Source of the DNA: Mytilus galloprovincialis
Lineage: Eukaryota > Mollusca > Bivalvia > Mytilida > Mytilidae
DNA: 64,000 nucleotides
Direction: 5' to 3'
NCBI RefSeq assembly: GCF_965363235.1
Contig: NC_134846.1
Span: 55,789,121-55,853,120, forward strand
Part shown: in pieces, positions 18,351 through 63,052 of the stretch
How the letters are laid out: every line of letters begins with the position of its first letter
Position numbering within the stretch: position 1 is the first letter of the stretch
Program-made: the position numbers and the translations under genes
Notes under the pieces: generated by a model
The model's database searches: none
The model's input: the letters and a program-made list of their open reading frames with translations, nothing else
What the model was told of the DNA's origin: nothing

Positions 18351-18563
18351 TTATGAGACTTTTACTGTTTTATTTTTCATCAATCTATACATATCAATAG
18401 CTTTCTGTCTTTCAGCGTCCATAACTTGCTGTTTAGCCATGGAAAGATTTTTCCTTTTTGTAGTTTGTCCTATTTCTCTTTTACTTGAGCGTAAGCTACT
18501 ATTTGGACTAGAAGCAGAATTTGCCAAAATGATTTCTTTTAGAAGCAGTGATCTTTTTCCAGG
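18351..18563 (-). CDS. CCDC137: CCDC137 exon 7 with stop codon
   Basis: 213 nt. Acceptor TTATTCTTTCAG. Encodes PGKRSLLLKEIILANSAS, a Ser-rich linker, then MAKQQVMDAERQKAIDMYRL and a short tail ending VKVS, TAA at 18353-18351. PGKRS..L.. and ERQKAIDMYR.MK match human PGRRSQMLR.. and ERERAVQAYRALK. Confidence 0.92.
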   Translation of the reverse strand, partial: PGKRSLLLKEIILANSASSPNSSLRSSKREIGQTTKRKNLSMAKQQVMDAERQKAIDMYRLMKNKTVKVS

Positions 18564-21500
18564 CTGAAAGAATAATAAAATAAAATGTCAATTCGTCATG
18601 AGAATTAAATTTCAATAATTAATTGTCAGCTGTTTTTATATTGGAACATAAACTAAGAAAATCAATACATGCAGTTTATGTAGAAAACATATGAAAATAT
18701 TTTCAAAGTAAAAAAACAATCAGTTCTATTGTATTTTAAACATTTAGTTGATTTTAACCAAACCTACAGATAAACTGGAGGGAAAACAGATCACTCTCAC
18801 TTCATGCCTCATTTGGAGACACATGTGAAATTATGCAGATGTCTAATATAAAATATGAATCCAGCAGAAAATCCTTCTTTGTAAATTTATTATCTGATAA
18901 ATAACAGAACAAAAGAATGTAAAATAGCTGTTAAATGAAAAGGGCATTACATGAGGGTCTGTAGGGGTTCTACATTTCTTTATTTTTAATTTTTAAAACC
19001 ATTTTTTTATGACCTTTATATATTTTGCTTATTATTCTCTATTCTTTACAATATTGAACACAATTATTCTCTTTTCTTCACTTTATTGTCAATTTGTCTC
19101 TCTGCATTTTTTTTCTGCCCTTCATTTTGCACTTTTTGCTTATTATTCTTTAAACTGTAAACACCATCCAGACCCTAATGCTTTGAGTTTGTTTCAAGAC
19201 ATTTGTGTATTGGGATGTATAGTTGATAGTTTTGTATAATATGTAAGACTGAGGCTGATAAGTAATGTGGTCAATTTGATTGACAGTTTAGGAGGTGGGG
19301 CATTGTTATTAAAGTTCCAATCTTTCCAAAAACAAATATTTTAGCAATTTTTCCTATTGTTAAGGGGCATGACTTTAGAATGGTAAAAGTGATGCCACCA
19401 ACATGCAAACTTGATCTGTTTTTTTCATGGTAATAAGCATTGTTGATAAGTTTTATTACATTTGGTTGAGGCAATCTAAAGTTGGAGAATAAAAAAAAAA
19501 ATTCAGCAATTTTTACATTTGAAAAGAGCATAACTCTAGAATGGTAAAAGTGACGCTACCAAAATTCAAACATGATGTGTGTTTTGTGGTAAAAAGTATA
19601 GTCGAAAAGTTTCATAATATTTGGTAGAGGCAAACTAAAGTAAGTGAAGGGTACCCAATTTTGGGATGTACATACAAAAGGACACAAGTAAAAATTAATG
19701 CCCCCTCCGCTATGACGGGGGCATAAAAATCATTACATGTACATAAATTTTTTGGCAAGGAAAAGAGACTTGAATATTTATCTTAACATACATATTCCAT
19801 TGCTATTGGTCCATATTGATTAATACACAGTTTATATATTTAATCCCCATCAAAATTTGTGTTGTAAATCAATAAAATCTGTTCAGAGGAAGATATACAT
19901 CACCTGCTTTGCAACAAAATCAAAATACTTTAAAATTTTCACAATGTTTTTATAAGTGAGAAAATTGTGATGGGATAGATTTCACCCCAAAAAAATTATT
20001 TGTATGTAAATTGGATTACCTCCCTTTTAACATGTTGGATGAATTATTTTTTTCAAGAAGAGTCAATTTCTAATGGGAAATATACAAGTTATGTACCATT
20101 CATCCATGAAACATGGAAGTTTACAAACATATTCAATCCACATTACCTTAGAAAACTGTTCATCTCTTACTGCCTTTCTTGGTTTAGATGTCAATATTGG
20201 GGGTGCAGAAACTACTTCACCAAATTGTATGTCATCTACAAAATAGAAAGTTTGTAATGAATATAAAGATATCTGGTTTAAAACAATAGTTAACTTCTAT
20301 ATGTAAAATTAACTTTACTCAGCTAGCCTTACACAATGTTTTGACTCAAGGCCAACAAGTCTTTGTTCTTAAACCTAAATGCAGCAAATACAAATCATCA
20401 AGTCTTTCGTTTGCCCTGGCTGTGAAGCAAACCCATATCCTCCCACACTTGAGGCGTTCAAGCTTTATGAAAAGAACACAGATAAAAGATATTTGAAATA
20501 TAGATAAATAAAACTATATTTAAGTAACAGTACTTTGGTAAAAAAAAAATTGATAGAAGCATCAAAAGTAACATGGTGAATGAAAATACAGGCTTGATAG
20601 GTTCTGGTAGGTGTATATATAATTAATGTAGAGAAAACAAGTGAAACTGCTAGCTACTGCTCACTGATGATACCCCCGTTGCAAGTGGATAACTTTAAGA
20701 GTGTAAAAATATGCAAGTGTTTGGTAAACAGGAAAATGTTGAGTGATGAATCTGAAAATGCATCACACGGTACAGCTGACTTATATAAACCCTGAAACCA
20801 AATTTCAGAAATCCTTGTATTGTAATTCCTGAGAAAACTGTGACAAAAATTTTAAACTTGGCTATCATGTGAAAAATCATACAAGTGTTCGGTAAACAGG
20901 AAGTTGTTGAGTGAAGAATCTGAAGACACATCACACGGTATAGCAGACTTATATAAACCTTGAAACCAAATTTCAGAAATCCTTGTATTGTAGTTCCTGA
21001 GAAAAATGTGATGAAAAATATTCATGAGAATGACGGACAGACAGAGGTAAAACAGTATACACCGCCTTTTTGAAAGCGGGGGTATAATGATCAAAATGTG
21101 TGTACACTTTTATTATATATACAGTAATGACAACCATGTTAGTATCCAGAATAATGATATAAAGCTGTACTTTCTATGAGTGATTGTACCCAAGTTGAGC
21201 TTAAATTAGCCCATTCATTTCACAGAATAACTTTAATCAAAGAGCAGATTGCTCTGAGGGATACGATTGCCATTGTTTTCATTGACACATGTATACATGT
21301 AGCTGGATATTATTTTCAAAACTAATTCAACTGCACATGTAAAATATACGTAATCTAAATAGTTACAATATAGCCAATCCCGGATAAAAGTATGTGAACA
21401 ATATACTTAGGCCTATTGTGTTTTAGTTTTGTACTATCAATTCTAAGTTTACTTTCCTCAGCGGTCACTGAGACACAGACTCTCACAGAGTGAGAGAAGG

Positions 21501-24500
21501 TATTTCACTTCGTATCTTACATGTATCACTATTTTCCTACGCTAATTCTAAGAGGAACCCCATTTCTAGCTCTTTAAATATTTAATTTCCTTTGGGTCAG
21601 TGATCATGACTTCTTTCCTTACATATTCATCGGTTTAAATTTCAATCGTTTTTAATATAATACGACGTTTATCGACAGAACAAGTTTATTTTTCTGAAGG
21701 TGTTGTTTTGATTAGAATTCACGGAAGTTACTTCCGGAAGGGAGACAACACTAAACCATAATATGGAAGACTCCATTTTGCTTGAAGGGGTGTTGTAGTT
21801 ACTTTTTCGATTTGGAATACATTTATTTTAATTTAAATGATGCATATGATTTAAAATTATGCAACAACAATAACCCTCAATAGGAGACATACATAGAAAG
21901 GATCCCATGAGTTATAAATTAATCAATTGAGTGGGGAATCCAGAGCAACCATTCAATCTAATACCCCTTGAAGTCAAGAAAACTATACGCATGCGCATAA
22001 TTACCTAAACAAACCCTGAAGCAAGAAGGTACATTAATTAAACGACCTAGATGGTTCTCTATTTTTTTATTGAAGTGAATTATCAAATATCAGTTTCATA
22101 ACAGTGACATATAAGAAAAACCCCACTTCAGTTCTTATATTACAGAAATAGATTTATCGGAATTCAGAGAACTTTCGCATTTTTATCCCGACTGGGGAAT
22201 TCCCTCTGACGTGTTTCTAAATTTATAAAAACACTAAATATAAACACTGGTTAATTCTGATTATCCGTGTTGTTAAAAACACGCACATAAGTCAAGGGAA
22301 ATATGAAACATGAAGATTATGAAAAGAACATTATGGGAAAGTTGTTTAAGTTCAATCCATTTGTTTGTTTTTACTTGTTAAACCAAGACAATGATAAGAA
22401 TCCGAGATATTCCTTAATGTTTAGAATAAAACAATTGACGTGAGGGCATGACACCCTGAGCCAATCCCATAAGTCTACAGATTGCTTGAAAGCAATCGTA
22501 TCCCAAAAATATATGATAACATATGCTGAGTGTTGATGAAAAAAGGCAACATGATGCCATAAAAATCTCTTTGACACATTCATTATTTCAATATTCAAAT
22601 CTTAAACTCCAATTGTTTAGACAAATTACAATATGAAACCAAGCCTTATATGATCTTATACAAAACCTTTTAAAAATTCTGTTTCTTTGTTATCGATATC
22701 TCTTTCATGTTTCTTATGTTTCATTTTCTCTTTCTTGTGTTTTAGTTTCCTGAAATCATATGTAAATAAGTTAATAAATAACCATCATTTAAACAGCTTA
22801 ATAACATCAGCATAAAATGGATTCATTATTACATATCACTTTCCATAAGATTGATATCTCTATAGCAATTTAACTAGTTTTTCAAATTTCAGAACTGTCT
22901 GAGGTTTCCACAATATCTTGAGCATGTACCTCAAGTGGAAACATATCACATTGGATGTAGTGGTTGTAATCCCATCTTAATAAGACATTTTCTGGAGATA
23001 GAGTTACATGTGTGTTTAAAAACTGATGTATTTGGAGAACTATAAATATGCATGACTGTAAACAGTCGGTTTACTAAAGTTGGTTTTATCTGAGAGAAAA
23101 AACCAACAGAAATCTTGAGTTTGAGAAGATGTACCATTGTAAACGCTTATATTTTTTCTGAGTTTGTAAGTAGTTTAATCATATTTATTTAAAGTGGATT
23201 GGGAAACAAGTTATTACAACTTATATTAATCTCTTTCCACTTTGCAGGTGCTAGTGCTGCCTTGTAGCGGCATTAGCAGGCTTTTTTTCGAAATCTACAA
23301 GGGCGCCTTTTACTTGCAAGAGATATGGCTCTCTCTTAACACGGATCAGCCGTTTATCATCCCCTTCCGACCGACTATCATCATTTCCTAAAGACCATAC
23401 TCGCAGATGGTGTTAAAGGAGAGCCGAAAATTCAATTTGTACTTATGGATAGTATTGCTGATGATTGTGATATATATGACTGCTAACCATCTCTGTTCTA
23501 GCATTTATTTTTTATATTCAACAGTCCTTTTCAAAAGTTGAAACAATTGTTCAATAAAGACTTTCAGGGCCTTTTATAGCAGACTATACGATATGGGTTT
23601 TTTCATTGTTGAATGCTGAACGGTTGCTTATAATTGCTTACAACCTAAGTAGATGGTCGTCTCATAGAGAGTCAAACCTCATCTCCTTATTATTATATCA
23701 AACAATCATCATTTGAACAGATAATATTTACTCTTTTCTACTTTTGCTCATTGACTTTTTCTTCTTCGTTAAATCTCCTTCATCTATGTCTTCAATGTTC
23801 AGCTGCAAAAAATATTAATCTATTAATATTATACAATGTTCAAAAGGGGCTTTTAAATGCACCTCTTCAACCAAAAGATTGAATTTTAGAGAATGATATT
23901 ATTCTTCTTGGTTAAAAATCTTAATCAATAGTAGAATATTTTAAAAGATCTATAAATTTTTTGACTAGAACTGCAAGTGAATCAGTTCTGTATAAATCAG
24001 GTCAATCCTAGTCTCAATTTAAGTATCATGTCTATTATTGTATCAATTTGGCAATCAACAAGGTCATGATTTTTTTCCCCAACAAATAGTATTTTTCAAT
24101 AGTATAAACAGAATTCTAATTATGCTTAACAATCTATCCAATTTAAGAATTTTGATAAATAATTATTAATATAAAATAAATACATATCTTGTTATCATAT
24201 ATCAATTTCAATGTCTATTTACATATACATACAGTTATACTGAAACAAATATAAAAGTAAAAGTACAGCTGAAATGAAACAACCAAAAGACTGATCAAAT
24301 CATATTTATGTATGTTTAATTGAGACTTTTTGTTAAAATATATGTACATGTATTCATAACATAAACTAACCCCATAGTGATCCGATAATTTAGACTGTAG
24401 TAAAACTTTTTGTGTGGTATTATCAACACGATTCAGAAAATCTCTTTCCTTTTCTTTTTTCTTCTGAATAAAAACTGGAGGTGGATCAAGAGGTCTTGTC

Positions 24501-27500
24501 TGTCCTGGGACCAGCTTTTGAAAGGTATCTACAATAAAAAAAAAAGAAGATTATTTGCAAATTATATAAGCAGTTGTGAATGAATTAGATGATTTGTGTC
24601 TAACAGCACATCTTCTGAAACTAACTCAACGTAGAACACCTAATAGGAATGTGTAATAATCGTTTCTACATCAGGATTAAGAACTTTGAACTTACTTCAG
24701 CGACTGCAAGCATTTTTTTACTAAATCATTTACAAAGTGTGCAAAAAATACCGTATCTACTTTTTCTGAACTGGTCTTAATTGTATGTTTTACTATGTAC
24801 AATAGTTTTATCTATTGATGAAGATTCAAAATGGGTAGAGTTGAGTATGAAAATCTAGTTCAACCTTGCTATATTATTTGTGTGCCTGTTCCAACTCAAA
24901 ATTTTAAGTGATTGTCTTGTTGAATAAGATTATACATGAATCTTAAATGTTTTGTTTGTTTACTCTCTAATTTGATGTTCATTAGAGATCATTGATAGTT
25001 TCTGTAAAACTTAAACTCATCTTAATAATATAACTGAGTAATTTATAGCCTGCTGACATTTTTTTCTATTGTTGAAGACAACACTGATCGCCAAATGTCT
25101 TTTGATTTTTTCTATTGTTGAAGACAACACTGATCGCCAAATGTCTTTTGATTTTTCTATTGTTGAAGACAACACTGATCGCCAAATGTCTTTAGATTTT
25201 TCTATTGTTGAAGACAACACTGATCGCCAAATGTCTTTTGCTTTTTCTATTGTTGAAGACAACACTGATCGCCAAATGTCTTTTGATTTTTCTATTGTTG
25301 AAGATAACACTGATCGCCAAATGTCTTTTGATTTTTCTATTGTTGAAGACAACACTGATCGCCAAATGTCTTTTGATTTTTCTATTGTTGAAGACAACAC
25401 TGATCGCCAAATGTCTTTAGATTTTTCTATTGTTGAAGACAACACTGATCGCCAAATGTCTTTTGATTTTTCTATTGTTGAAGACAACACTGATCGCCAA
25501 ATGTCTTTTGATTTTTCTATTGTTGAAGACAACACTGATCGCCAAATGTCTTTTGATTTTTCTATTGTTGAAGACAACACTGATCGCCAAATGTCTTTTG
25601 ATTTTTCTATTGTTGAAGACAACACTGATCGCCAAATGTCTTTTGATTTTTCTATTGTTGAAGACAACACTGATCGCCAAATGTCTTTTGATTTTTTCTA
25701 TTGTTGAAGACAACACTGATCGCCAAATGTCTTTTGATTTTTCTATTGATGAAGACAACACTGATCGCCAAATGTCTTTTGATTTTTCTATTGTTGAAGA
25801 CAACACTGATCGCCAAATGTCTTTTGATTTTTCTATTGTTGAAGATAACACTGATCGCCAAATGTCTTTTGATTTTTCTATTGTTGAAGACAACACTGAT
25901 CGCCAAATGTCTTTTGATTTTTCTATTGTTGAAGACAACACTGATCGCCAAATGTCTTTTGATTTTTCTATTGTTGAAGACAACAATGATCGCCAAATGT
26001 CTTTTGATTTTTTCTATTGTTGAAGACAACACTGATCGCCAAATGTCTTTTGATTTTTCTATTGATGAAGACAACACTGATCGCCAAATGTCTTTTGATT
26101 TTTCATTGTTGATGAGTTGCTGTATACTTTTTGTAGATTTTTGTAGATACACATGTACATTGTGTAGCCTTCCAGGCAGATACCAAGTTGAAATAAACCA
26201 AAGAAATGGAACTCTTTATTAGAGAAGAGTAAAAAGGCCAAATATGTATATTTGAATTGTTTGCATCCCTTTTTATTGATTCAAATTTTAAGTTTAGTGA
26301 AGGTGCATAATTTAAGATTTTATGTGCCTTATATACCTGTTTTTTCTTAAAGTATAGAATGAATTATTTGTAAACTTTTCGATTATTAGACAAATCAACA
26401 TAAAACAGTAGCTTGTTGTATATACGAATACACATAACTTGATCTTTATTGTGTACAAGCATAAATTCTGCTGAAAAAAAAACCACAGAAATAAAACAGA
26501 TTGGTCTGTTTAAATCAACAATTTGCATCTACATTGTATGAGCAATTTTAATCAAAAGAGAAATTGAAGAACACCTTTTTCTGTTTTGATGTGTTTCAGT
26601 TCACTATTCGGTCTTGAAATGTACAAAGCAAACATATTTGGTACATCATCTTGATTCACATTCTATTATTTTTATATTTTAAGGCTTTCAAGAGCTAAAC
26701 TGAGATTGTCATCCCTACAATGGCTTCCATTCTAATAATGATAAAAATTACAGTTCTGGCATAATAAGGAGATAATTTTGACGAAAAAAAAGTTCTGACT
26801 GCTTCTTCTTTTATTTATTCTGGACAAGCATGGGAACCAGTTTCAATAATATCTCAATACTGGGAGCCTAGCTTATCAAAGCAACGTTTCAATCAATTAG
26901 TGTTTTTTTTTCAGTAGTTGGTCTTTTGTTCCTCATCTGCCTGGAAGAAAACTTACATTTCCATTTTTCAACCAGGTGCTCCACAGGGCACAGCTTTATA
27001 CGACCGCAGAGGTCAAATCCTGAACAGTTGGGGCAAGTATTGACCCAACATTCAAGATTGATACAGCTCTGAATTTGGATTGTGATCAAATTTTTGACAT
27101 AATATGGGTGTGAGACATAAAACAAATGTCAAGATCTTACAAATCTATTGCGAAATATGGTGTAATTAAAGATTCCTTTTTCAAACTTTTCAAAAATTTG
27201 GAAAAAAAAAATTGAAAACTACTACCACCCCTCTTTCTTTGGCAATTAGTCCAAAACTTGACATTTTATTATACATAATTTACAAGTAGTGTAAGGGAGG
27301 TAAATCGGAACATACCTAACATTGTATGTTAAATATTCTGAGTTACCTCCCTTACACTGCTTTTAAATTGTCTTAATTGTCCATTGACCAGAAAAACATA
27401 ATTTTCCCCTTTTTTCGCCCCTAATTCCAAAACATTTTGAGCCATAACACCCCAAAGTCAATACTAACCATCCCTTCATAGTATGGAAACTTTTGGCACA

Positions 27501-30500
27501 ATTTCAGAGAGATTCATACACTTAAGCACAAGTTATTGTTTGAAAACTACAAAAATGCTTATTTTGGGCCCCCTTTTTGGTCCCTAATTCCTAAACTATT
27601 GGGACCATAACCCCCAAAATAAATCTAAACCTTCTACCTGTGGTATAAAACATTGTGGTACAATTTCAAAGCAATTGAAATACTTACGGGGTATACACCA
27701 GATAATAGCCTGAAAGTAGAAAAATGCTTGTTTTCTGCCCCTTTTGGGTCCCTAATTCCAAAACGGTTGGAACCATCATCCCCAACCTTCCTTTAGTGGT
27801 ATTGAACCATCATGTAAATTTCATAGAGATCGATTCATTAAATTAATGTTATTGTCTGGACACCAAATGTGTCTTTGGACGATGCCGACATCATACCATT
27901 ATACGAACGCATATAAAAATACATTAACTGGAGAATATGTGATGTATTTGACCACAATAATTAATGATGTAGATTTATTTTTTAGCAATTCATTAATGGT
28001 TATAATCAAAGACAATAAAACAATACCTTTTGCTTTGTTTTTCTTGAATTTTTGCTTTTTTCCTTGTTTAAACTTTTCTTTATTGTCCATGAAATATTGC
28101 ACTTTTCGGGGAATTTCTTGTGTGTCATCATTTTTTGGAGCCTCATCTTGACGAGTTTTTTGATGGCTGAAATGCAAATAAAAAATTAACATGCATCTAA
28201 GACATACAGTCAGTGGACAAAAGTGAGTTCCCACTAACTAAAACTTTTGTCCACTGACTGTACATGTACATTCTAAAACATAACTGTAGTTGTTATCAGG
28301 ACTCTCTACATTCTAAAACATTGTACAATGTATTAAGGCTTAAATGTCAATAGTTAATAAATTTCAATAAATTTGTAAAGTAAAAAGTAATAAAATGCCT
28401 TGTAGAGCTATTGCCCAATACTGTGCAATGGAAGATTTCGTACTCACGGGGGGATGTCACTTCCCATATGATGGTTTATACATATGTGCTGCTGGAATGG
28501 GTCCCTATTTTGATACGTCTTATATATCAATAGGGTGCATTTTACCAACGAAATATATCAATAGGTAGTAACTGACCAATTGTGATATAATCAATGAGTT
28601 ATAATTTTTCAGTTTGTTGTGCAACGATCTTCATTGAATTTCCCAAACTCTTTGTCACTAAAATTGTCATCATAAATATATGAATGGGTTATGATTTCGC
28701 TGTGAAATAGATGTATAGGTTGGGATTTCACAATTATTCAATGTATGAATGGGGGGTGTTTTGGAAATCCCAGCTGCACAACTGTACCCAAAATCCCATG
28801 TTGTGGTGTGGTACCATGCAAAAATGCTTGTTTTTTGGCCCTTAACAATTACCCCCAAAATTCAATCCCAGCCTTCCCTTTGTGGTATGGTATCTTCCAT
28901 TACAATTTCAGAGAGATCTGTACACATAAACAAAAGTTATTAGCTGGAAACTAAAAACATGCTTGTTTTGGCCCCTTGGAGGCCCCTTATTCCTGAATAT
29001 TTATGGCAATTACCCCCAAACTCAATCCCAGCCTTCCCTTTGTGATATGGAACCTTGTGGTACAATTTCAGAAAGATCCATACACTTATGGTACATACAA
29101 GTTATTGTCTGGAATCTACAAAAATGCCTATGTGGGCCCCTTTTTGGGCCCTTATTACTTAACAGTTGGAGTCATAACCTCCAAAATCAATCCAAACCTT
29201 CCTCTTGAGGTTTCAAACCTTGTGATAGATTTCTATCTACCTATACTAAAGTTATTTTCCGGAATTCAACTGTTTTCATATGACGCAGATGATGACGATG
29301 ACAAAGTGATACCAATATACAACCACAAAATTTGTGTCTGCCTCTGACATGTCGGATTGAATTGTCACTTATTTCATATTTCTAAGGGAAATTTTTGGAA
29401 ATTCTTTGCACTTACAAACACATAAAAGGTAAGCAATTGAAGAACAATACGGTACCTCAATGACTGAATGACACTGTAAAATTGTAATTTTAGCAAATAT
29501 TTGTGACTTTTCAACGTTGGTTAATAAATAATATTACATTATAAGTGTGTTATAACTCAAACAAGAGTGCACATGCTGAATTGTCTAGCCTTCTTTACTA
29601 CTGGTAAATCATACATGTGAACCTCCCGACGGGAGTACAATAATCCCGTTTTCAGGGGTCTCCTCCCGTCCTCCAGTTTAGGAGAAAAAACTCCCGTGTA
29701 TGAAATATTTTATGAATGAAAATTTTCAGCTGCCATATTTGATAATTGCTTACTACCGTACAGGTGTAATTGACACCTGTGTTAAATTTTACCTGTAAAT
29801 CAAAGAAGAAGTATAATTATATGGCTTCACTTGACAGCTTGGGTGTCAAACATACTGGTAATCAACGATGTTTACCTCTGGCTAACTGCCGTTGTGTTAT
29901 AAAAACTTTGTGTATTTGGTTACCTTTGATTTTTCCTGTTTTAAGTTATTTTGGTTTTAAAAATGTAAATTGTAAAAAGACTAAATGAATAATATTTTAA
30001 TCAAATAATCATAAAAGAATGCTTATTAAATGAATTTAAATGTTTTGGGACAAATGAAAAATAATAAATTTATAAGTTATTTTAGCAATCTAGACTTCTT
30101 TTCAAGGATTAAATTGAAGTTTATGTAGTAAGTCTGTCTGTCAAGTTGGTGACTGGGATACACAATATGAACATTTTACTTTCTTAGACTGAATAATATT
30201 CCTCAATTCTAACAAAACCTGGAGATTGAGAATTGTTTAAGTCAGTATATAAGACTTTAGATAGCTAAACATTTCTACAAATATGACTTTCATAATGCTT
30301 CAAAACCATGCAATACTATTAATAGTGTTCGTTATTTTTCTTATTAATTTATCATGTTACAAATATACATGTATAGCATATTTCTTTCTTATTTGTCTAT
30401 ACATGCAGTTACCAATGAGAAGGAGTTGGAGATATAAATACAAATCTATACAGATAAGATAAATAAATATAATGACAGCGTACACTCAATTATCAAAACC

Positions 30501-33282
30501 AAAACAAAAAAAGAAACAGATTCTTCTTAATATTTTATTTTCATTCAAATAGAAAGGCAATAAGGGTACTACATATATAAGCATATAACAATTTGATGGA
30601 AATTTGAAGAAAAAACACACTTTCTACATCATACGGTTACATTTACGACACAATTTATGTCGTTAAAAATCTCCTGATCTGAGTCCTAATCTCCTATCCA
30701 AAATTTCCAAATCCCCTGATCTGAGTTTCATAGTCCATCACATGTATGGTAAATCATTGTTATTATGTTTATAGTCCTATTAAATATAAAGCTTTACAAC
30801 AACTACATTATATCAAATAAACTTAACATGATCCAAGAAAAGGAAGTCAAGGTAATATAAATCAAACAAGAAATACATGTACACCTTACAATAATTCAAA
30901 ACACTAATTATAGTTGACCAATTGCTTATAGTTTCTAAGAAACAGACTTAACCAAGAAAACTAAACATTGACCAATGAACCATGAAAATGAGGTCAAGGT
31001 CAGATGAACTATGCAGACATGTACAGCTTTCAATACTTCTTACAACAAATATAGTTGCTCTATTTCTTGTAGTTAAAAAAAAAAACCAGACAAAAACACA
31101 AAAACTTTTAAGTTAAAACACTGAGCAATGAACCATGAAAATGAGATCAAGGTCTAATTATACCTGTGAGACTGACATGTACACCATAAAATATTACCAT
31201 GCACCAAATATAATTGACCTATTGCAAATATATAGTATTAGAAAAAAAAAGATCAAAGCTCAAAAACTTAAAACTTTGATTTCTGAGCCATAAAAATTAG
31301 GTCAAGGTCAGATGACACCTACCAACTAGACATGTACACCTTACAATCATTCCATCCACCAAATATAGTAGACTTATTGCATACAGTATAAGAAAAACAG
31401 ACCAAAACACAAAAACTTAACTGTAACGACTGAACCATGAAAATGGTGTCAAGGTCAGAAGACACCTGCCAGTTAAACATGTACACCTTACAGTCCTTCC
31501 ATACACCAGATATACTAGACCTATAACTTATATTATCTAAAATATGGACTTGACCATCAAACTTAACTTTGTTCACAGTTTCATGAAAGGAGGTAGAGGT
31601 CAAGCGAAAACTGTCTGATGTATGCATATACCAAATATAGTTATCCTATTACTCATAAGAGAAAACAAATCCATACCTGTCAACTCACCCGTTTTTTGCG
31701 GGTGACACCCGTTATTTTCACCTCTCACCCGGGAGTTTTTCTTTACCCGGCGGGTCCCGGGAATTTCTAACATTACCCGTTTCACCCGGATTTCTGACCG
31801 GAATTGTTTCCGGTATTTAGAAGTAATACGACCTTCGGTTTTATCGGTCTTTTTCAATGTAACCAAAAGTCAAAATGTAGGACTGTTGTTTACCTGAGCT
31901 ACGTAACGATATGAAGAGACAACAAAGCTACAAGATGAGTTCAGTGACTATCAGTTGACCCCATTAGATGAACTTCCACTTTGCACTTCCCCTGAAACTG
32001 ACATTGGTACATTTTGGGGAGAAATGTCCAAGTTGCATGACATTTTTATTAACAAGCCAAAATTTTTTGTTTTGTCAAAACTTGCTAAAACATTACTGGT
32101 TTTGCCAAACAGCAATGCAGACAGTGAGAGGGCATTTTCTTTAGTAAAGAAAATAGCTACAGAGTTTAGGGCTGATCTTAATAAGGATACACTGTGTGCT
32201 CTTCTTTCTTGTGAAATGAATACACATTTGCATTGCTATGAACTGAAACAAAGTGCAGTTCTTTTAAAGAATGCCAAGTCTACTACTATGGAATATAACA
32301 ATAGTCTGAAATAAACTTGTATACATGTTCTAACTGTTTCATATACATATTGACTATATAAATTATATGTAAACATATTTTTGTTCTTCAATTGAGCCTG
32401 CAAAATGTCGTACGCGTTATGACCTGAGATTTTTTTTCTCAATGCAGGTCATGACCTGACTTTTCATTTTCAGAGGTTGACAGGTATGCAAATCTCAACT
32501 TTTTTTTCAAGTAGTCACGTGCACTGAACCATGAAAATAAGGTCAAGGACAAGTGACATATGGACTTTAATAAGGTAGCTAACGCCGCGCCATCAGATCA
32601 CTATGAAGGCTGATGAACATTTATCCAGTGCTTTTCAAATTACTATGATTAAAATATTTTTTATCAAAAATTCATGTGTATGCCCGGGCTTATTGAGCTA
32701 AACCTAGCTACGCACCTGAATATTTATTACCTTTCCTCTCTATTATACTTGTTTGTTTTTTAATGACACTGGCCAACTAAGTGTATATAATTAACCACAG
32801 AATCTGTCCCATTTGAACTATTGATGTCATACAACAATCACTTTTTTATTGTGGCGTCAGATATTTTGTATTGTTGTCAAAATTTTACGGGAACATTTTT
32901 GATGATCAGTAGTGGCGGACAAATTGCGATAAGGTGTATAGGAATGTCTACCTTTAATGTTTAATAGGATACTGTAAGATAGTTCATTGTTAGTCGACCT
33001 TCCCATTGAATTAATATTTATAAAACAGGTGCATGTATAATATACCTATCATATGATATGTGATATGTATTGCATAAACTATCATGATTATGGACAAAAA
33101 TATTGGTCATCAGCTTTCAGTTTATGGCTTTATGGTGGATATTGATAGGAAATAAAATAAAAAGTAACTAACATTTGCTTTCTTTCACCATTGTAAAATG
33201 GGTCTACAAATTTAATCTTCCTGTGCTTTTTACTTTTCTGTGGTTTAGTCATAGGACCATTTTGATGATTAGTTTTACCCAT
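18351..33282 (-). CDS. CCDC137: CCDC137 homologue, complete CDS in seven exons (287 aa)
   Basis: CCDC137 (RaRF) is a basic nuclear protein, reported at nucleoli and the chromosome periphery and as a retinoic-acid-receptor partner; its biochemical role is unsettled. Exons (minus strand): 33282-33173, 28166-28027, 24528-24371, 23802-23732, 22749-22667, 20235-20147, 18563-18351. All use GT-AG and the phases (2,1,0,2,1,0) agree, giving 287 aa; the human protein is 289 by memory. Landmarks matched to human from memory: QEIPRKV with a basic run (residues about 53-83), FIQKKKEKERDFLNRVDN (about 103-120), DDIQFGEVVSAPPILT (about 188-203), PGKRSLLLKEIIL (218-230), and the C-terminal AERQKAIDMYRLMK. 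Lys/Arg-rich throughout, with likely coiled-coil segments and no membrane segment. It lies head-to-head with OXLD1, as in human. Introns are full of repeats. An upstream in-frame ATG exists, but MGKTNH is the likelier start by family length. Confidence 0.92.
19320..19735. repeat. 'ggggcataac' dispersed repeat, second copy
   Basis: Two to three modules with 'catgactttagaatggtaaa', 'gtgacgctaccaaaattcaa', 'tttggttgaggcaatctaaa', closing with 'gctatgacgggggcataaa'. Same family as 10800-11395. Lies in the CCDC137 intron between exons 6 and 7. Confidence 0.65.
20147..20235 (-). CDS. CCDC137: CCDC137 exon 6
   Basis: 89 nt. Acceptor CTATTTTGTAG, donor AAG|GTAATG. Encodes DIQFGEVVSAPPILTSKPRK, then AVRDEQFSK. 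The FGEVV..PP.LT motif is the clearest family signature and matches human KFGEVVLQPPELT. Confidence 0.92.
20667..21087. repeat. dispersed repeat with TACCCCCG..CGGGGGTA ends, two internal modules of about 180 bp
   Basis: Begins 'gatacccccgttgcaagtgg' and ends 'aaagcgggggtataatga', so its edges are inverted. Inside, 'aagtgtttggtaaacaggaa', 'tctgaaaatgcatcacacgg' and 'atttcagaaatccttgtatt' occur twice in the same order. In the CCDC137 intron between exons 5 and 6; non-coding. Confidence 0.7.
21100..22660. other. CCDC137 intron 5 sequence, nothing definite
   Basis: No exon or repeat with clear ends. One ETS-like palindrome (ACTTCCGGAAG at 21730-21740) sits here but is not tied to any start site. 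Confidence 0.4.
22667..22749 (-). CDS. CCDC137: CCDC137 exon 5
   Basis: 83 nt. Acceptor TGATTTCAG, donor AAAAG|GTTTTG (a weaker donor). Encodes KLKHKKEKMKHKKHERDIDN, then KETEFLK, a Lys/His-rich probable nuclear or nucleolar localisation segment equivalent to the basic run of human CCDC137. Confidence 0.85.
23172..23412. repeat. unclassified 240-bp dispersed repeat, copy 1
   Basis: 'ggattgggaaacaagtt', 'tgccttgtagcggcattag', 'gcaagagatatggctctctc' and 'accatactcgcagatg' recur in the same order at 44955-45191 with about 85 percent identity by eye. It could be a short interspersed element or part of a larger one. No A/B box was recognised. Confidence 0.75.
23732..23802 (-). CDS. CCDC137: CCDC137 exon 4
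   Basis: 71 nt. Acceptor TTTTTGCAG, donor AAAAGA|GTAAAT. Encodes LNIEDIDEGDLTKKKKSMSK, then SRK. Confidence 0.85.
24371..24528 (-). CDS. CCDC137: CCDC137 exon 3
   Basis: 158 nt. Acceptor TTATTGTAG, donor GGG|GTTAGT. Encodes TFQKLVPGQTRPLDPPPVFI, then a charged helical segment KKKEKERDFLNRVDNTTQK and LLQSKLSDHYG. This corresponds to the conserved central block of the family. Confidence 0.92.
25060..26104. repeat. 45-bp minisatellite, about 23 copies
   Basis: The unit contains 'attgttgaagacaacactga', then 'tcgccaaatgtcttttgatt'. Copies are almost identical; three units have one extra T. Because 45 is divisible by three and the unit lacks stops in several frames, long open frames arise on both strands; none has coding support. 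It lies in CCDC137 intron 2, 530 bp upstream of exon 3. Confidence 0.95.
26105..26950. other. CCDC137 intron 2, nothing recognisable
   Basis: AT-rich sequence with no exon, array or definable element. Confidence 0.4.
26960..27840 (-). repeat. bivalve-type composite repeat (reverse orientation)
   Basis: From 'tccacagggcacagctttat' and 'acgaccgcagaggtcaaatc', through 'ttggggcaagtattgaccca', to repeated modules 'cctaattccaaaac..ccataac' with 'aatttcagagagattcatac'. It includes a 16-bp perfect hairpin at 27288-27358. Corresponds in inverse order to modules at 35640-35990 and 39240-39390. Confidence 0.7.
27288..27358. repeat. perfect 16-bp inverted repeat with inner stem
   Basis: AGTGTAAGGGAGGTAA at 27288-27303 pairs exactly with 27343-27358. 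The loop contains a second stem, AACATAC (27309-27315) with GTATGTT (27324-27330). The outer stem is kept in a related repeat copy at 35915-35979. Confidence 0.85.
28027..28166 (-). CDS. CCDC137: CCDC137 exon 2
   Basis: 140 nt. Acceptor GCATTTCAG, donor AAAAG|GTATTG. Encodes HQKTRQDEAPKNDDTQEIPR, then a Lys-rich run. TQEIPRKV corresponds to the EQEIPFRL region of the human protein. A 58-bp palindrome sits 38 bp upstream of its acceptor. Confidence 0.9.
28205..28262. mobile_element. mariner-like minimal palindrome (58 bp)
   Basis: TA plus CAGTCAGTGGACAAAAGT, an 18-nt spacer, then the exact inverted copy and TA. A perfect 20-bp stem with TA at both ends and a CAGT terminus is what two abutting Tc1/mariner-type inverted repeats would look like. 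It sits 38 bp upstream of the CCDC137 exon 2 acceptor (minus strand). Confidence 0.7.
28680..29345. repeat. bivalve-type composite repeat, 4-5 diverged modules of about 140 bp
   Basis: 'ccaaaattcaatcccagcct', 'tccctttgtggtatgg', 'acaatttcagagagatc' and 'aaaatgcttgttttt' recur four to five times. Same family as 27540-27840 and 35640-37800. The open frames inside are repeat artefacts. Confidence 0.7.
29611..30747. mobile_element. hAT-type element with exact 8-bp target duplication
   Basis: Inverted ends ATACATGTGA (29611-29620) and TCACATGTAT (30738-30747) are flanked by the identical 8-mer GGTAAATC at 29603-29610 and 30748-30755, the signature of hAT integration. Subterminal 'ctcccgacgggag' and 'ctcccgt' words resemble the 'cacccg' subterminal words of the element at 31673. 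1137 bp. No transposase domain was recognised, so it is non-autonomous. Confidence 0.8.
30850..31645. repeat. 'gtacaccttacaatc' dispersed repeat, about 5 modules of 150-160 bp
   Basis: Modules share 'gacatgtacaccttacaatc', 'accaaatatagt', 'cctattgc', 'aaaacttaa', and 'accatgaaaatgaggtcaag'. Same family as 16640-17170. The hAT element at 31673 appears inserted near its right edge, since 'accatgaaaataaggtcaag' resumes at 32529. Confidence 0.75.
31673..32487 (+). mobile_element. hAT element with 12-bp TIRs and transposase C-terminal remnant
   Basis: ATACCTGTCAAC at 31673-31684 is exactly inverted at 32476-32487. Flanking 8-mers acaaatcc and gcaaatct match at 6 of 8. The interior has 'cacccg'-rich subterminal sequence on the left and the transposase fragment at 31955-32314. 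At 815 bp it is much shorter than an autonomous hAT element (usually over 2.5 kb), so this is an internally deleted derivative. Confidence 0.85.
31955..32314 (+). pseudogene. hAT transposase C-terminal dimerisation domain (fragment)
   Basis: An open frame of 119 codons carries LAKTLLVLPNSNADSERAFS, then LVKKIATEFRADLNKDTL and LLSCEMN, the hAT dimerisation region (LL.LP.S.A..ER.FS....I....R..L). The N-terminal BED finger and the catalytic core are absent. It lies wholly inside the TIR element, so it is the remnant of that element's transposase and is not expected to transpose. Confidence 0.88.
33173..33282 (-). CDS. CCDC137: CCDC137 exon 1 (coding part)
   Basis: Starts MGKTNHQNG with a fair Kozak context (AGCATGG) and ends ..GERKQ plus two bases before GTTAGT. 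It has the basic cluster KPQKSKKHRKIK. The frame stays open 5' of this ATG to 33435, so an N-terminally longer form cannot be excluded. Confidence 0.85.
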
Positions 33283-33521
33283 GCTTGTTTGTTGTTTTTT
33301 GTTATCTCCCCTGTAAGTTTCCTCTTGCACATAAATTGATGACGTTTTCAACAGTTCCGGTAACATTGAAACAAATTTTGAAGTTGATTGAAGTGTCATT
33401 CGTATGTATTTCATAATATCTGTGATCATAACCACGTTTCAAATTAATAATTGAATACTAACATTAAGCAAACCTAAATAGTTGAAATGAAAGGAAATCA
33501 TATGTAATTTAGATTTATTAC

Positions 33522-33550
33522 CTTACTTTACTTTACTTTACTTTACTTTA
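33522..33550. repeat. (CTTTA)n microsatellite
   Basis: Five to six tandem 'cttta' units, between CCDC137 exon 1 and the right arm of the inverted repeat. Confidence 0.9.
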
Positions 33551-34269
33551 GTCTGTACTGTTCCGCCTATATCAGACGACCCACTTTTCAGTGTGAATAT
33601 CATATATATATATTGTCAGTTAATCCAATGCACTAATATTGATTGTTTATACACATTAACCACCACCTCTATTTACACACGAGAATAAATACATCCCATG
33701 AATATATACATGACCGAAACTGGAGCGCAAGTCATTGGACTCAAAATGTTCGTTGCCCCATTACCAAAAAAAAAAATAACACAAAAGATCTTTTTGCTTG
33801 ATTTCAGCTTCACCAAAGATTTGTTTACGGGTTATTCTCAGTTATTCAGCAATTTTTTTTCAGATTTTTTTGGGGGATAACAGAATTGTTATCTTATGGT
33901 CCATTTATGGTATTAAATTTAGACTTAAACAACAGGGGCTTGATATATGAACAAGCCAAGCCCTGTGCTTAAACCTTTATAATTATGATTTTGATAATAA
34001 AAAGATAGTTCAATGTTAAGAAATCATATTAATTGTACCTTTATAACAGCACCCTATGTGTTTTGGATGTTACAATGTATATGAATTTAAAAATACACCT
34101 TAAAACAATTTGTCTGCCAATACTGGACATCTCAAAGGTTCCCGTAAAATGATGACTTCATCATGTTCATAGTACAAAATATCAGACGCCACATTTGGCT
34201 ACTACAATAGAAAAGTGGTTGTTGTATGAAATCAATAGTTCAAGGAGCACAGATTCTCTGGTAAACCAG

Positions 34270-34960
34270 CGCAAAATAGCGATGACGTGTATTATATACA
34301 TGTATCATATTATAGGTAGACAGTAAAAAAGGTAGCCTTTGGTCGATATTTGAATATTTAATTTTCACAAGATGTATATGTGACAAAAATTTGTTTTAAT
34401 ATGTTTATTAAGATTTCAAATATATGAATAAAGTATTAGTTAGATATAAAACATGTAAAATATTTTGATTTAAATCAGTTTATCACTAAAATAATTACAG
34501 ATTATATTAATGCAGTATAAAATAATTATTTTGATGTCAATGGTACCAGCATGATGAGAGAAATATATATAATATAAATGGTATAGAGATGCTGAAATAA
34601 TCTCTGTTGACAAGAATATTAGATGACGCAAAATGAACAATATTACTGTGCAAAAACGGTATAATAAATTATATATTTGAATGAAATTATATTGCGATGA
34701 TTTTGTAGACTCTTTTTTAACTTACTGAATATATTTTGTAGAAGACTTTAGATTTACTTGTGATAAGAATATACTTATCAAAGAATTAGACCAAGATGAT
34801 CTGAAATTAACTCTGCACTCTTTGACTGTGGATTTTATTAACCTAAATTATGTTTTGGCTTTATCATACAATACATATATAAATTTTATTTAGAATGTTA
34901 AAGTATCTGAACGAACATCTGTATTTGGTCTCATTTACCAGAGCTCAGTTCCCAGAGCCG
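34270..34960. other. AT-rich intergenic stretch, nothing recognisable
   Basis: Lies between the divergent CCDC137 and OXLD1 genes. No exon with good splice sites was chosen, although a 5' untranslated exon of OXLD1 is expected somewhere between about 33.3 and 41.1 kb. Confidence 0.35.
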
Positions 34961-34964
34961 TAAC

Positions 34965-37144: not shown

Positions 37145-37177
<33 letters not shown>

Positions 37178-38360: not shown

Positions 38361-38369
38361 TTATTATAT

Positions 38370-39160: not shown

Positions 39161-39161
39161 A

Positions 39162-47800: not shown

Positions 47801-48345
47801 ACTTGTTGAGTGTTGAATGGTTGGATAGAGTTGTTGAGTGTTGTATGATTGGGTTGAGTTGTTGATTGTTGGATGGTGGGATAGAGTCTTAGAGTGTTAA
47901 ATGGTTGGATCGAGTTGTTAAGTGTTGAATTGTTGGATAGAGTTGTTGAAGGTTGGAGATGATTGGATAGAGTTGTTAAGTGTTGAATTGTTTGGTAGAG
48001 TCTTAGAGTGTTGAATAGTTGGGTAGTGTTTTTGAATGATTAGGTAGAGTTGTTGAGTGTTGAATGGTTGGATTAGAGTTGTTGAGTGTTGTATGATTGG
48101 GTAGAGTCTTAGAGTGTTAAATGGTTTGATAGAGTTGTTGATTGTTGAATGATTGGATAGAGTTGTTAAGTGTTGAATTGTTTGGTAGAGTCTTAGAGTG
48201 TTGGATGGTTGAGTAGTGTTGTTGATATTGAAGGGTTGGGCAGAGTTGTTGAGTGTTGAATGGCTGGATAGAGTTGTTGAGTAATAGATGGTTGGATAGA
48301 GTTGTTGAGTGTTAGATGGTTGGATAGAGTTGTTGAGTGTTGGAT
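44880..48345. repeat. 28-bp degenerate satellite, roughly 110-120 units
   Basis: The consensus unit is 'gttgaatggttggatagagt' plus 'tgttgagt'. A second unit type, 'gagtcttagagtgttaaat', alternates irregularly, and some units are shortened. Copies are 75-95 percent alike by eye. A 240-bp unrelated repeat splits the array at 44955-45191. The open frames rich in HSTTLSNH/QPFN peptides are artefacts of the array. Confidence 0.95.
44955..45191. repeat. unclassified 240-bp dispersed repeat, copy 2, inside the satellite
   Basis: Matches 23172-23412. Satellite units resume immediately on both sides ('gttgaatggttt' / 'gtgttgaatggttgg'), so it looks inserted into, or carried within, the array. Confidence 0.75.
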
Positions 48346-48754
48346 GGTAGATATTCTGTAATAGAATTGATGTGACAGAAATAATTTCCTGTCATATTGA
48401 GTTGACAGTTACGATTTCCTGTCTGTGTTTGAGGTGGCTGTGATTATGTTAGTTCCATTTTGATGTTTTGAATTTTTTTTGAAGATCGAAATTCTGTCTT
48501 TAAAGATGCCTTGAGTCGACAGTAAACATGATTTCTTTGAGTTATTTCTGGAAAAATTATATTTGTAACTTTAGTATATGTGTAAGTATTTTCCCTGAGT
48601 ATGAGATGGTAGAGATCTGTGATGTCTGTGGAATTGACAAGAATGGTTTCATTTTGTGTTTGGCTTAGTTGAATTTCTGTTCTCTCTGTGTTTGGGATTA
48701 TAGAGATTTGTTTTCATCCAAGTTGAGCTGACAGAAATAGTGTTATATCGATAT

Positions 48755-54235: not shown

Positions 54236-55463
54236 GGATATAAGTAACTATAGGGTCCGCTCTGGTTTCAAATAAGTAACTATAGGGTCCGCTCGGGTTT
54301 CAAATAAGTAACTATAAGGTCCGCTCTGGTTTCAAATAAGTAACTATAGGGTCCGCTCTGGTTTCAAATAAGTAGCTATAGGGTCCGCTCGGGTTTCAAA
54401 TAAGTAACTATAGGGTCCGCTCGGGTTTCAAATAAGTAACTATAGGGTCCGCTCTGGTTTCAAATAAGTAACTATAGGGTCCGCTCGGGTTTCAAATACC
54501 TTGGTAAGTAACTATAGGGTCCGCTAAGGTTTCAAATAACTTAACTATAGGGTCCGCTAGGGTTTCAAATAAGTAACTATAGGGTCCGCTCGGGTTTCAA
54601 ATAAGTAACTATAGGGTCCGCTCGGGTTTCATATAAGTAACTATAGGGTTCGCTAGGGTTTCATATAAGTAACTATAGGGTCCGCTCGGGTTTCAAATAA
54701 GTAACTATAGGGTCCGCTCGGGTTTCAAATAAGTAACTATAGGGTCCGCTCGGGTTTCAAATAAGTAACTATAGGGTCCGCTCGGGTTTCATATAAGTAA
54801 CTATAGGGTTCGCTAGGGTTTCATATAAGTAACTATAGGGTCCGCTCGGGTTTCAAATAAGTAACTATAGGGTCCGCTCGGGTTTCAAATAAGTAACTAT
54901 AGGGTCCGCTAGGGTTTCAAATAAGTAACTATAGGGTCCGCTCGGGTTTCAAATAAGTAACTATAGGGTCCGCTAGGGTTTAAAATAACTTAACTATAGG
55001 GTCCGCTAGGGTTTCAAATAAGTAACTATAGGGTCCGCTCGGGTTTCAAATAAGTAACTATAGGGTCCGCTCGGGTTTCAAATAAGTAAATATAGGGTCC
55101 GCTAGGGTTTCAAATAAGTAACTGTAGGGTCCGCTCGGGTTTCAAATAAGTAACTATAGGGTCCGCTCGGGTTTCAAATAAGTAACTATAGGGTCCGCTC
55201 GGGTTTCATATAAGTAACTATAGGGTTCGCTAGGGTTTCATATAAGTAACTATAGGGGCCGCTCGGGTTTCAAATAAGTGACTATAGGGGCCGCTCGGGT
55301 TTCAAATAAGTAACTATAGGGTCCGCTCGGGTTTCAAATAAGTAACTATAGTGTCCGCTCGGGTTTCAAATAAGTAACTATAGGGTCCGCTCGGGTTTCA
55401 TATAAGTTACTATAGGGTTCGCTCGGGTTTCATATGAGTAACTATAGGGTCCGCTCGGGTTTC
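54236..55463. repeat. 32-bp satellite, about 38 copies, with variant units
   Basis: The unit is 'taagtaactatagggtccgc' plus 'tcgggtttcaaa'. Variants (ctcGGG/ctaGGG, caaata/catata, gtccgc/ttcgc) recur in fixed order: the 'catataag..ggttcgctagg' pair appears near 54630, 54790 and 55205, 160 and about 416 bp apart (5 and 13 units). This indicates block-wise duplication. No spacers, so not a CRISPR. Confidence 0.95.
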
Positions 55464-55649
55464 AACAATGAACAAACCCAGATACATAAATTCATGAAAG
55501 AACAAAACTGATTGGTGTAAAAAAAAAAAACAAGTGACAGACGGCAACTTACGACAACCACTGAATTACAGGTGCCCGACTTTAAAAAGACTTAAAAAAA
55601 TATAGTGAAATATGTTTGCATGATGACGCATAAATTTAAACGTGTTTTT

Positions 55650-61500: not shown

Positions 61501-63052
61501 AAGTGCATGGTTGAGTTTTTCTTGGTTTAGTCAGTTTGATGTGATGTCACAGTGTCACTTTGATATTAAGTTCTTTATAACAGAAAACATGAGGGTGAGC
61601 TGTCCGTCAATGCTCACTGTAATGGGCAACATCAGTGTTAAAATATCTATTACCTTTGGCAAAGTAACTTCAAAATTGTATGCTATTAGTTTAAACTCAA
61701 GCACAAAGAAAACTATAAGAACCAACTTGTTTTTTAAGGAACTCTGTACTTTGAGGTATGAGTTTATTTAAGGGTCAGGGTTACTATGAGGTTTGAGTTC
61801 ATTTAAGGGTCAGGGTTACTAACTTACTATGAGGTTTGAGTTCATTTAAGGGTCAGGGTTACTATGAGGTTTGAGTTCAATTAAGGGTCAGGGTTACTAA
61901 CTGACTATGAGGTTTGAGTTCATTTAAAGGTCAGGGTTACTTTGAGGTTTGAGTTCATTTAAAGGTCAGGGTTATGTTAGAGTCTGGGCCTTGATTGCCG
62001 AATGGTAAAAGTAGTTCTTCTATTTAGATCACTTGAAATTCCCTATCAACAATGAGATGAGTTAAATCACTGCTCCCTCAATCTTAATTAACCAATAACC
62101 AGGATTGTAAGTTTTCCTGTAGAAGGTTGTGATTCTCACACGACCAGGACACACTGGCTTTCTCAACCAATATGATTTAGCTCCCTTGATATAACCAATT
62201 GTGTGGAAATGATATTAATGCAAACAATCAATCCATCAATACAATAACATTGCAGTGGTTAGTAATTGTTGGAGCAGAGGTTAGAATTATAATTAAGGGT
62301 AAAGATTGGTTTAGGATTACTGTAATGAAGCTAGCTATATTGCCTTCTCCTGTTTCTGCTATTTGGTTGGGTTGTTGTCGTTTTGACACATTTCCCATTT
62401 CAATTCTCAATTCTATATGGGTTGTGTTCACCTACATGTACATTTTGTACAATGTTAGTAAACAGAGATCTAAATGATATTTTACATCATTGGCACACTA
62501 AGACACTTCAAATACATGTAAGAGGGCTTAGATAAAACTGAATATTTGTATGTTCAATCTAAAAGGTTTTATTATTTTCAGATTTTCTTGTCGCAGTGCA
62601 AGTCAGATGCAGCTGCAGCTTTGCTTGCCTGTAGCCCACCTTCTCGTCCTAGTAGAAGCAGTACACCTACAGCACCCATCTCAGATAATGAGCTGGTAGC
62701 CATGACGGTCAAAGAGCTGAATAAGTTGCTTAAAGGCTTGAACAAAGATGAGATAATCAAGTTGAAGCAGAGACGTAGAACGTTAAAAAACCGTGGGTAT
62801 GCTGCAAATTGTAGAGAAAAGAGGATGACGCAGAAGGAAATACTTGAAGGAGAAAAAGATGGTTTGAGAGCTGAGGTTGAACGTTTACAGCGCGAAAATG
62901 ATGTGGTTAAACTGGAGTTAAATTCACTCAAAAACAAATATGATGCTTTACAGAGATTTGCAGAGGTGAATAGGATCCGTGTTTTATCACCACCCATCAT
63001 GTATTCTACTGGTTTCCCACATATTGTCAAGGCGGAACCGAGTCTTGGGTAA
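58530..63052 (+). CDS. small Maf bZIP transcription factor, two coding exons, 160 aa
   Basis: Small Mafs (MafF/G/K type) have a bZIP but no activation domain; they dimerise with CNC factors such as Nrf2 or with Bach and bind MARE/ARE sites. Exon 1 is 58530-58541 (MSKK, donor AAG|GTAAGA), exon 2 is 62582-63052 (acceptor TTATTTTCAG), phase 0. Extended homology region about 37-63 ([20 protein letters not shown]), basic region about 64-86 with [20 protein letters not shown], including the Maf-specific Tyr (GYAANCR, 76-82), then a leucine zipper to about 131 ([20 protein letters not shown]). The C-terminus ends [13 protein letters not shown] at 153-156 fits a SUMO consensus. Length matches small Mafs (about 150-165 aa), so not a large Maf. 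One-to-one naming as MafK or MafG is not warranted in a mollusc. Confidence 0.93.
58542..62581 (+). other. small Maf intron (4.04 kb)
   Basis: AT-rich, no recognised exon. Contains a three-fold 'ataggctgggactacaa' block near 61080-61142 and the 35-bp tandem repeat at 61753-61975. Confidence 0.7.
61753..61975. repeat. 35-bp tandem repeat, about 6 copies
   Basis: The unit is 'tactatgaggtttgagttca' plus 'tttaagggtcagggt'. Two units carry an extra 'aacttact/aactgact'. TTAAGGGTCAGGGTTA only superficially resembles telomeric repeats. Confidence 0.9.
62582..63052 (+). CDS. small Maf coding exon 2
   Basis: 156 codons plus stop (TAA at 63050-63052), with all recognisable domains. Residues 5-36 are Ser/Pro/Ala-rich ([14 protein letters not shown]) before the extended homology region. 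Confidence 0.93.

Follow-up and report, generated by a model that had tools for sequence, protein, structure and literature searches.

Bilaterian ancestral linkage groups are a form of macrosynteny, and ancient metazoan microsyntenic pairs and blocks are said to have been described by Irimia and colleagues in 2012. Adjacent pairs that have survived since the bilaterian ancestor are material for asking what holds gene order in place. In the available excerpts of Robert 2022 (PMC8851819), a microsyntenic block is three or more orthologues between which no more than five genes intervene, and part of another source describes P4HB-ARHGDIA, at human 17q25.3, as a conserved pair that is reported to be disrupted in molluscs and annelids (PMC5722932). 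The window (the whole 64 kb stretch of DNA analyzed) contains CCDC137, OXLD1, and a small Maf gene. As in bilaterian ancestral linkage groups, orthologues from one human band lie on one contig (C9, which carries the window) with their order scrambled; here the comparison covers one band and seven further genes, and ANAPC11 is found elsewhere. CCDC137 and OXLD1 are immediate neighbors both here and in human, as in ancient metazoan microsyntenic pairs, and this pair is kept although P4HB-ARHGDIA, from the same human band, is the one that the excerpted source reports as broken. The window trio, in contrast, breaks the excerpted rule of Robert 2022 in human, where more than five genes intervene. 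The head-to-head layout is also like that of the human divergently paired genes in the part of PMC3815023 available, but ~8 kb separates the start codons here and promoter sharing is putative.

The preliminary description had placed CCDC137 on the minus strand and OXLD1 on the plus strand as divergent neighbors, with a small Maf gene 17 kb further on. Orientations and coordinates of the pair were confirmed, and the small Maf gene is present, but its exon was measured at 20.8 kb from the OXLD1 stop. CCDC137 occupies 18351-33282 on the minus strand, and all of its exons have GT/AG edges wherever an intron follows.

18351-18563, minus strand: last coding exon of CCDC137; stop codon at 18351-18353, acceptor TTCTTTCAG; aligns to the hand-entered human C-terminus
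20147-20235, minus strand: CCDC137 coding exon 5; 48% identity over 27 aa to the hand-entered human protein, GT/AG edges
22667-22749, minus strand: CCDC137 coding exon 4; lysine-rich
24371-24474, minus strand: CCDC137 coding exon 3; out of phase where it joins exon 4, E 0.12 when searched alone
28027-28166, minus strand: CCDC137 coding exon 2; similarity to hand-entered human CCDC137, GT/AG edges
33173-33282, minus strand: first coding exon of CCDC137; ATG at 33282, the start being placed by similarity and context
33283-41261: interval between the start codons; 7,979 bp, ~2.4 kb (~30%) of it tandem arrays
40726-41178, plus strand: possible 5' UTR intron of OXLD1 with a plus-strand donor; a weak candidate
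41262-41732, plus strand: single coding exon of OXLD1; ATG at 41262, stop ending at 41732; PF09791, E 2.7e-14
62582-63052, plus strand: last coding exon of the small Maf gene with the entire bZIP and ~32 residues ahead of it; PF03131, E 3.4e-28; acceptor TATTATTTTCAG; exon(s) 5' of it not located

The human order given in the preliminary description, with CCDC137 beside OXLD1 and MAFG in the same band, agrees with excerpts of two published gene lists: the order is OXLD1, CCDC137 ... SIRT7, MAFG, with OXLD1 adjoining CCDC137 and SIRT7 adjoining MAFG, and MAFG stands 14 genes further on in one list, while the second has 12 genes between CCDC137 and MAFG. We favor, at a probability of about 0.72, a reading in which two inherited layers are superposed: retention of the genes on the same chromosome, and CCDC137-OXLD1 kept as divergent neighbors.

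The first layer was assessed with seven further 17q25.3 genes located by family search, two of them identified by Pfam family alone.

ASPSCR1: C9, 52.9 Mb; family search
ARHGDIA: C9, 59.6 Mb; family search
HGS: C9, 62.5 Mb; identified by Pfam family alone
GPS1: C9, 71.6 Mb; family search
NPLOC4: C9, 83.2 Mb; identified by Pfam family alone
MRPL12: C9, 87.2 Mb; family search
ANAPC11 (between CCDC137 and SIRT7 in human): C4; family search; the one of the seven off C9

C9 makes up 6.8% of the assembly, and by share of assembly the probability of finding at least six of the seven on it is 6.7e-7; the orthologues of one human region are enriched on one chromosome, as in the retention of an ancestral linkage group. 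The six are spread over 52.9-87.2 Mb (34 Mb) in an order scrambled relative to human. Beyond 17q25.3, C9 also carries a SIRT1-like gene and two more genes of the sirtuin family. Exchange of pieces between bilaterian chromosomes is rare, which would explain why C9 holds most of the 17q25.3 genes tested, with the order along it shuffled. This layer alone would place the small Maf gene on the chromosome of CCDC137 and OXLD1, with no function needed.

The preliminary description had gone further and proposed an ancient bilaterian block, perhaps held by a shared promoter or regulatory landscape. The linkage in common with human is real and extends beyond the trio, and the CCDC137-OXLD1 adjacency is local; however, since six genes are scattered over 34 Mb and 14 human genes separate CCDC137 from MAFG (12 in the second list, in either case beyond the limit of five intervening genes for metazoan microsynteny), the trio mostly reflects one conserved chromosome and no tight block. 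The small Maf gene is linked to CCDC137 and OXLD1 mainly at the scale of the chromosome and not through a kept local block; overall, the trio is an ordinary case of a familiar sort. The case shows the need to test a same-band linkage against chromosome-scale retention before claiming a regulatory block.

There is nonetheless a local surplus on C9, made up of the CCDC137-OXLD1 adjacency and of SIRT7, at a distance of 245 kb from the small Maf gene. In PDB, a SIRT7 exon at 55.6026 Mb matches sirtuin-7 alone at the level of E 0.001 or below (E 2.6e-29), and more exons as far as 55.607 Mb fit a hand-entered human SIRT7. When nine units were placed uniformly on C9, 0.17% of trials (0.0017) brought three of them within 260 kb, with thresholds picked after the positions were seen; with genes clumped five-fold, 4.2% (0.042) did so. 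Any two fell within 45 kb in 3.4% of uniform trials and in 16% of those clumped five-fold. Three units so close are rare under uniform placement and less so if genes clump. SIRT7 and the small Maf gene, adjacent in human, may be the loosened remnant of another old neighborhood. A true ancient bilaterian regulatory block, in which a shared promoter and regulatory landscape hold CCDC137, OXLD1, SIRT7, and small Maf in place, would draw on this surplus, on SIRT7 and small Maf lying within 250 kb, and on the divergent pair itself, but we consider it unlikely: the other interval genes tested are megabases away or on C4, and H1 and a CUB-domain gene sit within the SIRT7-small Maf stretch, which was read apart from 80 kb lying between the window and SIRT7. 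Possible but doubtful is that CCDC137-OXLD1 might be a bilaterian (or older) bidirectional pair under cis-regulatory constraint and SIRT7/small Maf the remnant of an ancient cluster, so that a neighborhood of ~250 kb would survive amid shuffling over tens of megabases.

The interval between CCDC137 and OXLD1 bears most directly on a shared promoter. The two genes are divergent in orientation, as bidirectional pairs are; in such pairs transcription starts lie within ~1 kb of each other, and the start codons of CCDC137 and OXLD1 are separated by 7,979 bp. A coding scan gave 80 segments, of which the 41 that are not mostly repeated and have at least 22 aa were read, and no coding gene was recognized in the interval; a 45-aa minus-strand frame at 40441-40575 with a mildly coding score matched no Pfam family. 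The CpG profile rests on few CpGs and we draw no conclusion from its values, which are 0.92 at 33401-33800 near the CCDC137 start (an ordinary 0.48 over 1 kb) and 0.00-0.16 between 40801 and 41600 near the OXLD1 start. Splice donors were scored with a hand-entered donor matrix. The window's top minus-strand donor (40277) and a leading plus-strand donor (40726) lie divergently between the genes, 449 bp apart. Shuffling the gap 2000 times gave such a pair (both at least 7.7, within 460 bp) 6 times, and just once when the minus site had to score at least 8.7, which speaks for the regulatory block. Two of 7211 GT sites score at least 7.8 unrounded; the donor at 40726 gets to 7.8 by rounding only and is among five listed at that rounded score. 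A plus donor as good as the OXLD1 candidate's appeared in 567 of the 2000 gap shuffles, so that evidence for the 5' UTR intron is weak. On the minus strand, the donor reads as the reverse of TTAGCTCACCTGG, and two flanking loci (L038 and L052) contain near relatives of this motif followed by similar letters; the donor is therefore probably in the remnant of a dispersed repeat. Although the pair looked like non-coding first exons flanking a single promoter, we did not count it. Two results oppose the repeat reading: blastn gave no longer similarity around the motif, and the 521-base stretch was found once in a genome search, which skips very common words. With start codons ~8 kb apart, ~30% of the gap in tandem repeats, and one of the two donors in a repeat-like motif, the shared promoter of the preliminary description is not established.

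In human, the available part of one source assigns a 656 bp methylation-array region (chr17:79633202-79633857) to both CCDC137 and OXLD1, and an excerpt of a second likewise gives the two genes a smaller region; the published passages at hand that name CCDC137 with OXLD1 or C17orf90 are gene lists or methylation lists. Because one short region is common to both genes, they are likely to have had a start region in common at the outset. Repeats would then have pushed the start codons apart, and given the present gap, tight promoter sharing has probably gone or been reduced here. As the second layer of the favored reading, CCDC137-OXLD1 would be a retained ancestral pair; descent of the adjacency from the ancestor is likely, judged from two species, with gene lists and background knowledge supplying the human half.

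It is decidedly unlikely that same-chromosome chance alone is at work, with shuffling along C9 having brought CCDC137 beside OXLD1 and the small Maf gene nearby. With 45 interval genes assumed and placed uniformly, one would fall within 21 kb of OXLD1 in ~2% of cases and within 250 kb in 21%, and since many windows were looked through, such a match is overall not rare; chance is nevertheless a poor account of immediate CCDC137-OXLD1 adjacency in two phyla and of SIRT7 again near small Maf.

That a paralogue was mistaken for one of the three genes, or that the model of CCDC137 is spurious, is extremely improbable: although the CCDC137 product reached no Pfam or NCBIfam curated cut-off (its first part being scanned for NCBIfam) and the human comparison sequence was entered by hand, its six exons lie in order on one strand, its local score against that human query is 241 (maximum 102 among 1000 shuffles), and OXLD1 and small Maf exceed Pfam curated cut-offs. 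The joined CCDC137 product aligns over most of its length with the hand-entered human protein (95 bits), and the six places listed in a search of the 1.385 Gb assembly were all inside the window; colinear similarity and single copy are thus both found, with one exon junction out of phase. As the junction of exons 3 and 4 is out of phase, an edge or an exon is still missing. The first-exon frame is also open further upstream, as far as 33438.

All three genes look single-copy in the assembly. OXLD1 matches hand-entered human OXLD1 at 36% identity over 108 aligned columns (E 1e-18); its open frame of 157 aa (156 from the ATG) has PF09791 as the sole family listed, and it is a short Oxidored-like domain protein without a reductase domain. 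The bZIP_Maf domain (PF03131) of the small Maf gene scores 98.4 bits, and against PDB the best match is MafG at 116.6 bits, with MafA at 85.6 and MafB at 83, so the gene is nearer MafG than large Maf. Small Maf proteins carry no transactivation domain ahead of the bZIP; the ~32 residues in that position here are those of the last exon. The two other PF03131 places are, by eye, a large Maf on C6 and a CNC/Nrf-type gene on C2. Among the places listed, PF09791 occurs just once more, on C1, close to a stretch that by eye is cytochrome b5 reductase-like and that may be CYB5RL.

Coding features in the window, with their positions and strands where assigned, are as follows.

13466-14014: linker histone H1 gene
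33282 to 18351, minus strand: CCDC137, six coding exons with GT/AG edges at the intron-flanked exon ends
31907-32314: hAT transposase remnant inside the first CCDC137 intron
41262-41732, plus strand: OXLD1, one coding exon (PF09791, E 2.7e-14)
62582-63052, plus strand: small Maf exon (PF03131, 98.4 bits)

The exon model and the PF09791 frame bear out CCDC137 and OXLD1 as divergent neighbours; the small Maf exon is present past them, but at 20.8 kb from the OXLD1 stop and not at the 17 kb claimed in the preliminary description. The joined CCDC137 translation scored 95 bits against human CCDC137 (local score 241; maximum of 1000 shuffles, 102), and the genome search gave six places among the matches listed, all in the window. 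Exons 3 and 4 do not join in phase, which leaves this gene model incomplete. The sole other PF09791 place among the matches listed is on contig C1, near a stretch read by eye as b5 reductase-like. The small Maf exon has MafG as its top PDB match, and of the two further PF03131 places in the genome, the one on C6 looks by eye like a large Maf and the one on C2 like a CNC-type gene. The OXLD1 domain (41262-41729) also has a match in PDB 7zm7 (E 8e-7), to a chain named 'Oxidoreductase-like domain-containing protein'; we take this entry to be a fungal mitochondrial complex I, in which case the match would hint at OXLD1 function. A 12-codon upstream frame (41227-41265) ends in a stop that overlaps the OXLD1 start codon (ATGA).

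In human, we take CCDC137 and OXLD1 to be head-to-head. The available part of one gene list gives the regional order NPLOC4, TSPAN10, PDE6G, OXLD1, CCDC137, followed by 14 genes ending in SIRT7, after which come MAFG and PYCR1 and the series continues to ASPSCR1 (PMC12254877); a second, likewise seen in part, agrees in order and has 12 genes between CCDC137 and MAFG (PMC4074351). Both lists place OXLD1 next to CCDC137 with MAFG nearby, as had been proposed, and SIRT7 next to MAFG. Seven further 17q25.3 genes were placed by family search of the Mytilus galloprovincialis genome, C9 being the contig that carries the window, at 55,789,121-55,853,120.

C9:52.9 Mb: ASPSCR1
C9:59.6 Mb: ARHGDIA
C9:62.5 Mb: HGS, by Pfam match alone
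C9:71.6 Mb: GPS1, distinguished from PSMD6 (C1) by aligning both to human sequences
C9:83.2 Mb: NPLOC4, by Pfam match alone
C9:87.2 Mb: MRPL12
C4: ANAPC11

Six of the seven are therefore on C9, which we treated as a chromosome and which at 94.7 Mb makes up 6.8% of the assembly (1.385 Gb, 331 contigs); were genes to follow length, P would be 6.7e-7. Relatives met in the same searches are mostly off C9, on C1, C2, and C6, and so are 11 of 17 sirtuin places off it. C9 also carries a SIRT1-like gene and two sirtuins without clear human counterpart, so that its contents exceed the 17q25.3 relatives. The six genes are dispersed over 34 Mb, which indicates chromosome-scale retention with scrambled order. 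The trio had been read as an ancient bilaterian block; its linkage with human is real, but can mostly be put down to ancestral chromosomes having been retained in the ordinary way. Plausibly, CCDC137 and OXLD1, adjacent here in one mollusc and in human, are an ancient pair. Two similar sirtuin genes lie 1.5 Mb apart at L020 (C9:73.48 Mb) and L022 (C9:72.00 Mb); no human sirtuin matched their class by eye, and L024 (C1) is a possible relative.

Robert and colleagues, in the part of their paper available, speak of a microsyntenic block where at least three orthologues are separated by no more than five other genes, a definition outside which the trio's human arrangement falls; of the blocks that were new in the bilaterian ancestor, they report 84% as lost in vertebrates (PMC8851819). 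In the same human band, the P4HB-ARHGDIA pair is described, in the text available, as disrupted in molluscs and annelids (PMC5722932). The accessible portions of the literature naming OXLD1 or C17orf90 (the same human gene) with CCDC137 say nothing about a conserved linkage between the two genes.

C9 also carries SIRT7, at 55.603 Mb; its distance to CCDC137 is 200 kb and to small Maf 245 kb. Sirtuin-7 is its exon's sole PDB match at E 0.001 or better, adjoining exons (55.6016 to 55.6071 Mb) agree with human SIRT7, and its start may, by eye, lie in two segments from 55.592 Mb that look coding. When nine units, CCDC137-OXLD1 counting as one, were placed uniformly on C9, three fell inside 260 kb in 0.17% of trials, rising to 4.2% when the genes were confined to a fifth of the length; the distances were picked after the positions were seen, and the local surplus of 17q25.3 units near the window is suggestive, not strong. 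One SIRT7 exon end, 'DRCDIILCLGSSLKVGS', occurs four times in tandem and in frame (L028:1498-1926), a multiplication of the exon's 3' edge and perhaps of the splice donor too. We read 50 kb around SIRT7 and, flanking the window, 90 kb on the left and 30 kb on the right, and found these neighbours.

C9:55.588 Mb (L051), minus strand: 3-mercaptopyruvate/thiosulfate sulfurtransferase-like gene adjoining SIRT7
Neighbourhood of the window and SIRT7: gene with a CUB domain
Past small Maf, minus strand: gene with Ig-like and EF-hand segments, below Pfam's cut-offs

Human relatives of the sulfurtransferase-like gene are presumably at 22q12, on the same arm as MAFF. None of the neighbour genes in these stretches was recognisable as a member of the human lists, as far as these were available (PMC12254877, PMC4074351).

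A common promoter or regulatory landscape had been suggested as what holds the genes together. In the excerpts available, a 656-bp differentially methylated region (chr17:79633202-79633857) is assigned to CCDC137 and OXLD1 (PMC11984428); another, smaller region is assigned to CCDC137 together with C17orf90 (PMC8877984). Such assignments are what one would expect if the two genes had a common start region. In the window the two start codons are 7,979 bp apart, and it would take non-coding first exons spanning the gap to bring both genes under a core bidirectional promoter. Tandem arrays fill about 2.4 kb of this gap (2,470 bp with short inter-array gaps counted), and a coding scan gave weak frames only in it. 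The gap holds divergent strong donor sites 449 bp apart, a pairing reproduced in 6 of 2000 shuffles; as first exons around one promoter they were set aside, one donor lying in a motif with relatives in the flanking loci, although the 521-base stretch, searched as a whole, turned up only once in the genome. Given those relatives, we count a shared CCDC137-OXLD1 promoter as neither established nor refuted. A palindromic AGCTCACCTGGCC...GGCCAAGTGAGCT motif, which we take to be a common bivalve repeat, occurs in one flanking locus (L038:5124-5156), with a diverged relative in the other (L052). Further repeats lie in a CCDC137 intron and in the OXLD1/small Maf interval.

25061-26112: tandem array in a CCDC137 intron, 23 copies of a 45-bp unit, both strands with long open frames
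44872-48348: minisatellite past OXLD1, built of 28-bp units; its longest array is 45192-48348, and its strand asymmetry is very strong (GC skew 0.91 at 46-48 kb)
54240-55465: tandem array past OXLD1, 38 copies of a 32-bp unit
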